Assembly: GCA_018401885.1 (NCBI GenBank)
Contig: JAGYKB010000001.1
Coordinates: 248,001 to 312,000, forward strand
DNA: 64,000 nt
DNA from: Gammaproteobacteria bacterium
Lineage (GTDB): Bacteria > Pseudomonadota > Gammaproteobacteria > Pseudomonadales > Pseudohongiellaceae
Direction: 5' to 3'
Shown in pieces: positions 40,351 through 42,283 of this stretch (its first letter is position 1; each line of letters begins with the position of its first letter). The notes under the pieces were generated by a model. It did not search any database and was not told where the DNA came from. It saw nothing but the letters and a program-made list of their open reading frames with translations. The translations under genes were made by a program, and so were the position numbers.

Positions 40351-41127
40351 TTAAACACCTTCTAACTCGTAATCGATAATAACAGGAGCATGGTCCGAAA
40401 AGCTCTGCTCGCGATAGATCGAAGCGCCCACTGTCGAATCCGCGATTTCGGGAGAAACAACGTGATAATCGAGTCGCCATCCCACGTTATTCGCTCGAGC
40501 CTGTCCTCGATTCGACCACCATGAATATTGCTCTGCTTCAGCGTTCACTCGACGAAATGAGTCTGCGAACCCGACTTCGTTAAATAACTCATCAAGCCAT
40601 GCTCGCTCCTCTGGCAGGAAACCTGAGTTTTTCATATTGCCCTTCCAATTTTTTATATCGATCTCTTTGTGACAGATATTCCAGTCGCCACAGACGATAT
40701 AGCGCCTATCGTCTTGTGCGAGAGTTCGCATATGCTGCATGAAATAGTTTAAGAATCGCATTTTGCGGGCCTGTCTCTCGTCACCGCTCGAGCCAGATGG
40801 GAGGTAAAGCGAGATAACGCTCAGATCGCCAAAGTCGGCCTGCAGATAGCGCCCCTCTGTGTCCGCGATGTCTAGCCCAATTCCTCGATGGATCTTGTCA
40901 GGCTCTCTGCGACTGTAGAGCGCCGTGCCCGAATAGCCTTTTTTTTCCGCATCAAAATAGTAGCAATAATATCCTTCTGGATTGAACTGCGGGTCTGTTA
41001 GCTGGTCCGCCTGCGCTTTTGTCTCCTGCAAGCAAACTATGTCTGCGTCGACTGAGGGCAACCAGTCGAAAAAGCCCTTACGAGAAGCGGCACGGATCCC
41101 ATTGCAATTCAGCGTTACGACTCTCAT
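40351..41127 (-). CDS. xthA: Exodeoxyribonuclease III
   Basis: 258 residues from ATG 41127, preceded by GAGAGGAAAA. AP-endonuclease/exonuclease family: [20 protein letters not shown], the [17 protein letters not shown] active site and SDHAPVIID. It removes abasic sites and 3' blocks. A CRP-type palindrome lies about 100 bp upstream. It could be named exoA/xth in Pseudomonas-style nomenclature. Confidence 0.95.
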
Positions 41128-41227
41128 TTTTCCTCTCACTCATTTAATTTCGTACGCACCATACCCTGTTGGCTTTGCGCACGTCGGTGTAACCTATGCC
41201 CTACCTAGGTGTTACCTACGCGTTACC

Positions 41228-41243: not shown

Positions 41244-41407
41244 AAGGCAGCTAAAAAATCCGCGGGGTTTAAGGGCTTAGTCCAGACTCTCCAGTCGAGA
41301 TATTTTGTATAGTTATCATTTAAATTATTGTAATATATGTATTATTTTTATTTTGACAGAGTTTTTCAGTTGCGCGTCATTATGTGTAAAAAAATTCAGA
41401 AAAAGTG

Positions 41408-41436
41408 TTACCAATATTCTCCGACTGTGTTACTAT
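41408..41436 (+). promoter_or_regulatory. Likely promoter of the 37-residue peptide gene
   Basis: TTACCA (41408-41413) and TACTAT (41431-41436) are 17 nt apart. The start point would be about 41443, leaving a leader that contains a G-rich stretch (GGATAGGGGGG) before the ribosome site. Moderate consensus match. Confidence 0.5.
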
Positions 41437-41506
41437 TTGCCCCGTTGTTGGATAGGGGGGCGTCGGGCCTCAGACTAAAGCAACACCTTAAGTTTAGGAG
41501 TATGTC

Positions 41507-41620
41507 ATGAGCAACGCACTCAAAAGAGCGCGCCCCGTAGTAGAAGCCACTGTTGTCAGCGTAGCATTAGTAATCGCTGCTCTATCAGTGCCCGCTGCGA
41601 TAGTGCTCGCTAGCGTTTAA
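41507..41620 (+). CDS. Small single-span membrane protein (37 residues), unknown
   Basis: A short open frame: basic, polar start MSNALKRARPVVE then a continuous hydrophobic run (ATVVSVALVIAALSVPAAIV) to the end. The ribosome site AGTTTAGGAG is 6 nt before ATG. It has its own promoter and ends in a strong terminator 112 nt later, so it looks like a dedicated small transcript. It has no recognisable domain. The form fits a regulatory single-span peptide or a type I toxin-like peptide, but no antisense RNA is evident; I do not assign a function. Confidence 0.62.
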   Translation: MSNALKRARPVVEATVVSVALVIAALSVPAAIVLASV

Positions 41621-41731
41621 ACGCAGCAACAAAGGAATTAACAGTGCTCGCTGGTACTCGCGAGCGCCAGTAAAGGTGAATGACACCGAATCAGGACTGG
41701 ATTCCCCTCATATTTTTTCTGTGCATCTTGA

Positions 41732-41768
41732 ACACCAAACTTCTCCCCGAGGCTTGGTGTTTTTTTTG
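41732..41768 (+). terminator. Rho-independent terminator
   Basis: ACACCAA and TTGGTGT (7-bp stem plus partial inner pairing) are followed by nine T. Plus-strand polarity: it ends the small-peptide transcript just before the convergent moaB stop at 41771. Confidence 0.9.
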
Positions 41769-41770
41769 CT

Positions 41771-42283
41771 TTAAAAAGCGACCACTTTTAATTTATCGAC
41801 GAAATTACAAGGCTTATGACTGCTATCTAATTGCTCTGCGATCACCCGATCCCACCCCGTCGCGCAGGCGCCTGGTGAGCCTGGCAAACAGAAGACAATG
41901 ACATTGTTGGCAATCCCCGCAAACGCACGGGATTGTATTGTCGATGAACCAATTTCAGTATGAGAGAGCTGACGAAAGAGCTCACCAAAGCCATCGATGG
42001 ACACGTCAAATAACGGCTGAATCGCTTTCTGAGTATTATCGCGGGGGGTAAATCCTGTTCCTCCGGTCATCAGTATTACCTGTACGCCCGGATCGGCAAT
42101 TAGCTGGGAAACCTCGGCTCGCAATTGGTAGACATCATCTTTAATGATGCTTTTGTGACAAAGAAAATGGCCCGCAGAGACAAGGCGTTCCACGAGCACG
42201 GCGCCCGAACGATCAGTTTCCTCGGTGCGAGTATCAGACACTGTTACCACCGCTATTCGCAGGCTTTTAATCTCTTCACTCAT
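41771..42283 (-). CDS. moaB: Molybdenum cofactor biosynthesis protein B
   Basis: 170 residues with the MPT-binding fold motifs RIAVVTVSDTRTEETDRSG, ILMTGGTGFTPRDNT and CLPGSPGACATGW. MoaB/MogA proteins adenylylate molybdopterin before metal insertion. It is 105 nt downstream of moaA on the same strand. Confidence 0.93.
   Translation of the reverse strand: MSEEIKSLRIAVVTVSDTRTEETDRSGAVLVERLVSAGHFLCHKSIIKDDVYQLRAEVSQLIADPGVQVILMTGGTGFTPRDNTQKAIQPLFDVSIDGFGELFRQLSHTEIGSSTIQSRAFAGIANNVIVFCLPGSPGACATGWDRVIAEQLDSSHKPCNFVDKLKVVAF

Follow-up and report, generated by a model that had tools for sequence, protein, structure and literature searches.

The window, the 64,000-nucleotide stretch of Pseudohongiellaceae DNA analysed here, contains a compact plus-strand unit at positions 41406-41767 that, as read from the sequence, is flanked by xthA and moaB (Table 1). 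The unit runs from an extended -10 promoter through a leader, a ribosome site, a 37-codon frame and a 110-nt trailer to a terminator. An initial annotation had proposed a self-contained transcription unit for a membrane peptide at this place. The observation is confirmed, and its interpretation is supported by the conservation of the frame and its neighbours and by purifying selection. The 17-nt promoter spacing, the ribosome site and the terminator that it described are all present, and the promoter boxes are conserved in loci of the family. The 110-nt trailer, counted from the stop codon to the terminator stem, is present as well; its hairpin is wider than the CTCGCGAG originally noted.

Table 1 Features of the peptide locus, in positions of the window
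Feature	Position	Strand	Basis or remark
xthA, exonuclease III-like neighbour	40351-41139	-	Pfam Exo_endo_phos; name by analogy
GTTAC cluster, candidate operator	41189-41193	-	putative function
	41211-41215	+	
	41222-41226	+	11 bp from the preceding site
Promoter: TGTTAC (41406-41411) over the -35 and TGTTACTAT (41428-41436, extended -10)	41406-41436	+	sequence, conservation
Predicted leader, about 64 nt	41443-41506	+	putative start point
Possible 5' stem-loop in the leader	41444-41484	+	outer pairs 41444-41449/41479-41484, by eye
AGGAG ribosome site, six bases 5' of the ATG	41496-41500	+	sequence; lenient purine-rich site in 103 of 105 loci
Single-span membrane peptide frame, 37 codons, including stop	41507-41620	+	ORF reading, profiles, dN/dS
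Trailer hairpin, stem GTGCTCGC/GCGAGCGC	41644-41667	+	sequence; also in the whole-transcript fold
U-rich block TTTTTTCTGTGCATCTTG, directly 5' of the terminator	41713-41730	+	core TTTCTGTGCA shared by all 6 loci of the window's clade
Intrinsic terminator: stem from 41731, T run ending at 41767	41731-41767	+	sequence, fold, own scan
moaB-like molybdopterin-binding protein, convergent neighbour	41771-42283	-	Pfam MoCF_biosynth

Coding status and spread of the peptide gene

The pattern of variation among relatives makes it nearly certain that the 37-codon frame is a genuine coding gene. Among 64 genes of 37 codons from the window's genus (g1), the entropy at codon positions 1, 2 and 3 amounts to 0.77, 0.43 and 1.60 bits. 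The median dN/dS of these genes is 0.27 over 272 of their 2016 pairs, indicating purifying selection; between the window and its closest sister, differences affect 9.7% of the synonymous sites and 1.3% of the nonsynonymous ones. Exactly 37 residues are found in 65 of 67 peptides of the genus (L022 and L113, discussed below, are excluded from this count). Across 103 peptides of the family the length ranges from 33 to 43 aa, and a late proline is present in 101.

The single hydrophobic span predicted by the initial annotation corresponds to a best 19-residue mean hydropathy of 2.7 in the window; the median over 104 peptides is 2.59 and the minimum 1.64. The basic head that it also described is real in the window's genus, where the first 12 residues carry a mean net charge of +2.65, but is not general between genera: the single g144 locus has +2.0, and the other five genera range from -1.75 to +0.2. 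Conservation appears to favour one helix face (A14, S18, A25, P29 and I32), a modest statistic obtained from 60 peptides with p values of 0.0065, 0.011 and 0.019 over three ranges. A selected frame of less than about 50 aa with a membrane-length hydrophobic span would place the peptide among the single-span microproteins, which are a class and not one homologous family.

The gene is present once in its own genome. At E <= 1e-3, 21 of 24 congeners gave a match to the single peptide; with the unit's complete DNA as the query, just 5 of them did. Profile A1, built from 19 rows, matched 71 of the 84 genomes of the genus including the window's own, and 43 of the 48 better ones. Among 74 non-redundant loci of the genus, 71 adjoin moaB or xthA and 59 adjoin both; the other three are L020, L026 and L114. 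The initial annotation had named a frame lost beside conserved flanking genes as the outcome that would speak against it. This comparison was run, and in the genus the frame is conserved together with its neighbours.

The 13 congeners that profile A1 did not match should not be read as clean losses, since eight of them lack a moaB match as well. The sequences of G046, G052 and G086 stop where moaB ends or close to that point. G001 continues for 489 bases past moaB, and the gene is not among them; since other loci place it up to about 1350 bases away, it may lie further on. G072 holds a diverged copy of the peptide at the right place. Promoter boxes and 3' hairpins are retained at two loci where the frame is not intact: L022, and L113, which is a second copy in G068; the peptide may thus be dispensable there, or the assemblies may be in error. 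Homologs away from moaB were seen at L020 (1501-1786) and L026 (minus strand, about 1255-1605); downstream of each lies a further small ORF (53 or 71 aa). The L026 genome also carries a normal copy of the gene. L020 is the only copy in G019, which has no moaB match.

Outside the genus, profile A1 matched none of 10 sampled family genomes from other genera and none of 373 other genomes of the order. On the moaB side of those 10 genomes we found a different-looking peptide of 33-38 residues, in each case behind both promoter boxes. The silence of the profile outside the family is therefore a weak argument, as it also missed these 10 carriers. Profile A2, to which the sequences from other genera were added, gave matches in 113 of the 137 genomes of the family (81 of the 92 better ones), spread over six of eight genera. 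In g147, a hydrophobic frame of 40-43 residues lies behind the same boxes in 5 of 5 genomes. These and three more g16 genomes were assigned by position and promoter because they gave no profile match. Profile and synteny combined place the gene in seven of the eight genera of the family; the eighth, g145, is represented by a single genome with no moaB match. In all 20 further family loci that were fetched, moaB adjoins the gene.

Searches of the order and the class gave no convincing relative outside the family, within the short reach of profiles of this length. In 369 genomes of the class, profile A3 yielded five weak matches besides the window's own genome (E 5.5e-4 to 7.4e-3), all inside frames of 78-604 aa. 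Of 29 pattern matches in viral contigs, none was confirmed.

No convincing match to the peptide was obtained in Pfam, NCBIfam, PHROG or PDB. The Rv1733c family (NCBIfam NF050032) matched 8 of 19 members weakly, the best score being 16.7 bits (E 0.0054) where the cut-off is 80, and SecE (Pfam PF00584) matched 1 of 30 members at E 0.011. INV_N, MWFE, PsbN, three PHROGs and ND3 in the PDB (E 0.44) gave weak or single matches. These identities were rejected. Pfam contains a CydX model, and no CydX-type small subunit was among the matches of 19 members (E <= 1) or of 30 members (E <= 0.1). A pilin-like pattern consists of E followed by P in a helix. This reading was also rejected, as the cleavage glycine is missing and the peptides of g15 and g146, read by eye, have no such E. 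The open-licence literature on small proteins of Pseudohongiella and transcripts of Pseudohongiellaceae yielded nothing on this gene among the titles listed.

Promoter and GTTAC sites

In the window, the promoter hexamers are TTACCA (41408-41413) and TACTAT (41431-41436), the latter directly preceded by TGT, with a spacer of 17; the two promoter boxes lie 22 bp apart. A consensus scanner does not list this promoter, which has 8 of 12 consensus bases by our count at a threshold of 9. On the plus strand it does not list the terminator either, whose uninterrupted stem encloses more than the 8-base loop limit. Because the scanner lists neither, the case for the promoter rests on conservation.

Conservation was assessed over 105 loci of seven genera: 69 from g1, 12 from g146, 8 from g16, 6 from g15, 5 from g17, 4 from g147 and 1 from g144. 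Five of the 74 non-redundant genus loci were excluded, namely L020 and L026, which lie elsewhere, L021, which contains many N, and L110 and L114, which are at contig ends. L178 and L182 were read by eye outside this set. TGTTACnnT is found 50-115 nt 5' of the start codon in 104 of the 105 loci, with L111 as the exception. In 103 of these 104 loci, all except L108, a second GTTAC lies 20-24 nt further upstream; among 5200 trials with shuffled DNA, 34 gave a second GTTAC at that distance. Across the loci compared, the promoter is the most stable part of the unit and is better kept than the peptide.

Upstream of the promoter, GTTAC or its complement GTAAC is enriched in every genus sampled, with 1.08 per locus in g1 against 0.22 expected and 2.63 in g16 against 0.30 expected. 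In L136, L138, L175 and L176 of g16, GGTAAC and GGTTACC inverted repeats occur in the trailer; they repeat the promoter motif and possibly form a hairpin.

The window's own genome has the exact double box at a single place, the peptide locus, which argues against a large regulon. When two mismatches were allowed, TGTTAC-N16-TGTTACNAT matched 9 places in that genome and its reversed control matched 8; this locus was the sole exact match. A wider regulon was thus rejected, and the scan of this genome assigned no other gene to the putative regulator. A stricter promoter pattern matched 18 of 390 genomes of the order, and its reversed control matched 10. Nine of the 18 belong to the family (4 in this genus, 5 in g15), out of just 17 family genomes that the sample contained, and have the pattern just 5' of the peptide places. 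The other nine, from f36/g60 (L140-L148), carry a look-alike double box. In the five that were read, it precedes a frame of 92-112 residues, which we take to be yajC.

ArcA and related regulators of the OmpR/PhoB family are described as binding repeats one or two helical turns apart, often several per site (PMC3798270). The repeats here are also 11 or 22 bp apart. The motif differs, however: it is TGTTAC, it overlaps the promoter hexamers, its spacing varies from 20 to 24 and some sites are inverted. The likeness to an OmpR/PhoB-type regulator would serve as an analogy for the operator only.

Leader, trailer and the end of the unit

A stem of 7 bp, close to where the RNA is predicted to start, shows compensating changes in g16, g17 and g147. 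In 16 pieces, picked by eye from sequences showing the stem, 99.1% of cells are paired and 20 cells are changed on both sides, and 0 of 500 shuffles are as high for either measure. Four pairs with a double-sided change and 12 further pair types were also counted, and 139 and 347 of 500 shuffles, respectively, are as high. It is the covariation in these three genera that supports the predicted 5' stem. Taken singly, the leaders show no clear folding advantage over shuffles: the median z is -0.38 to -1.64 in those genera that have at least two loci. For the window's leader the minimum-energy fold is not this stem, which the leaders of the sister loci L082 and L091 do give.

Read by eye, the trailer hairpin is fully paired in L082, has one mismatch in L091, is altered in L094 and is not seen in L083 and L089. 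For the whole 326-nt transcript the folding advantage over shuffles is only slight (z -1.64), and 8 of 100 shuffles fold as well.

The trailer differs between clades. In 44 of 69 g1 loci (for example L002, L007 and L016) it contains a second mini-ORF of 8-15 codons, with a ribosome-site-like sequence and an ATG. Shuffled trailers gave a mini-ORF of this size in 5 of 680 cases. Among the 44, 40 have 10 to 12 codons and 28 of these have 11. The stop codon is directly followed by CACC or CGCC in 41, and in the loci inspected an arm of the terminator begins there. The AGGAGG-type site of the mini-ORF can pair with CCTT inside it, and a hairpin could perhaps hide the site; trailer-hairpin pairing is 0.826 compared with 0.793 in shuffles (3 of 1000 as high). 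This mini-ORF is absent from the trailers of the window and its five sister loci. A different downstream mini-ORF is found in 10 of 12 g146 loci (L158-L171 except L165 and L170), about 50 nt past the frame. It mostly has 13-18 codons, with 31-34 in two loci, and its ribosome site is weaker.

A good terminator was detected in 49 of 68 g1 loci, compared with 26 of 340 g1 shuffles, and in 4 of 4 loci of g147, 4 of 6 of g15 and 3 of 12 of g146. No clear terminator was found in g16 (0 of 8), g17 (0 of 5) or g144 (0 of 1). By these counts, the way in which the unit ends varies within the family.

A predicted membrane microprotein and its alternatives

In the loci compared, the unit keeps its place and promoter across the family, and its frame is conserved and under selection. 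The product is most likely a single-span inner-membrane microprotein, the N-terminus of which probably lies inside in the window's genus. Our best explanation as a whole, a genuine single-gene transcription unit for a membrane microprotein that docks on a partner and answers to a dedicated regulator, has an even chance of being correct.

Docking on a larger membrane protein by one helix face is, taken separately, a proposition that could go either way. The peptide would lie against such a protein, or against copies of itself, via A14, S18, A25, P29 and I32. The fixed length, the late proline and the conservation of one face fit the packing of a helix against another membrane helix. Once docked, it would tune the activity or assembly of its partner, in the manner of CydX and AcrZ within their own complexes. 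A putative dedicated regulator would set expression through the GTTAC sites in the promoter and upstream of it.

CydX is described as a 37-aa subunit of the E. coli cytochrome bd oxidase, variable in sequence with few conserved residues (PMC4325964), and the peptide shares its length, its strong variability between relatives and its few conserved residues. However, CydX genes belong to cydAB operons; in the loci read, the present gene is a solitary one flanked by xthA and moaB, and no kinship emerged from the Pfam or NCBIfam scans. AcrZ, a small transmembrane protein described as binding the AcrB pump in its membrane part (PMC7267776), offers a likeness in acting on a larger membrane protein, an action that is conjectural here. 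It has no sequence match to the peptide in Pfam, NCBIfam or PDB.

The transcript could instead be a dual-function RNA that encodes the peptide and also regulates through its leader or trailer, or that governs the trailer mini-ORF in other clades. The compensating changes in the 5' stem of three genera, the excess of the g1 mini-ORF over shuffles and, in the window's clade, the U-rich block next to the terminator would fit such an RNA, as would L022 and L113, where promoter and hairpins are kept without an intact frame. We nevertheless regard it as unlikely. The elements of the trailer are confined to particular clades, and the mini-ORF is missing from all six loci of the clade to which the window belongs; two of the five covariation measures do not exceed shuffles, and neither trailer-hairpin pairing nor the fold of the whole transcript rises much above them. 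VcdRP of Vibrio cholerae, a dual-function RNA reported to combine the 29-aa VcdP with a regulatory RNA (PMC8672173), resembles the unit in its short transcript, tiny frame and structured ends, but the trailer here is not conserved over the family. It is also quite doubtful that the locus is a family-wide core micro-operon, in which the microprotein would be joined by a structured RNA or by a trailer micropeptide with a self-sequestered site, in a closed regulator-peptide loop peculiar to the family; its regulator would be one whose double site this genome has at no other promoter.

Many type I toxins are not usually single-copy at one fixed place throughout a family, whereas this gene usually is through most of its family. 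Such a toxin, or some other RNA-controlled peptide that damages membranes, is improbable, even though the length and single hydrophobic span resemble those of DinQ and TimP (PMC8309996), which are described as short single-span peptides (PMC3567139, PMC7667032). The N-terminal charge, not being conserved between genera, speaks mildly against a lytic role. No toxin family is among the Pfam, NCBIfam and PHROG matches, and no minus-strand promoter-like site was found in 41443-41767 by a weak scan that also missed the plus-strand promoter. The own promoter and the position between metabolic genes might suggest a leader peptide or attenuator for a neighbouring gene; this is very improbable, as no same-strand gene precedes the terminator, moaB being convergent and xthA divergent. 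We give hardly any credence to a chance open frame in a regulatory interval. Short frames are common here (112 ORFs of at least 30 aa overlap 11 kb), but purifying selection, fixed length and family-wide synteny contradict it.

The membrane microprotein that we favour represents a new family of a known kind of protein: a predicted, uncharacterised single-span membrane microprotein with a dedicated promoter and a conjectural function. Conserved microproteins are hard to find because searches fade quickly at 35 residues. In this case, position and promoter carried the search into genera where the genus-level profile was blind, and tracing a conserved promoter and synteny instead of the peptide sequence offers a general route. 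For the family, a gene kept by most of its members is a concrete target, with one promoter and probably one dedicated regulator.
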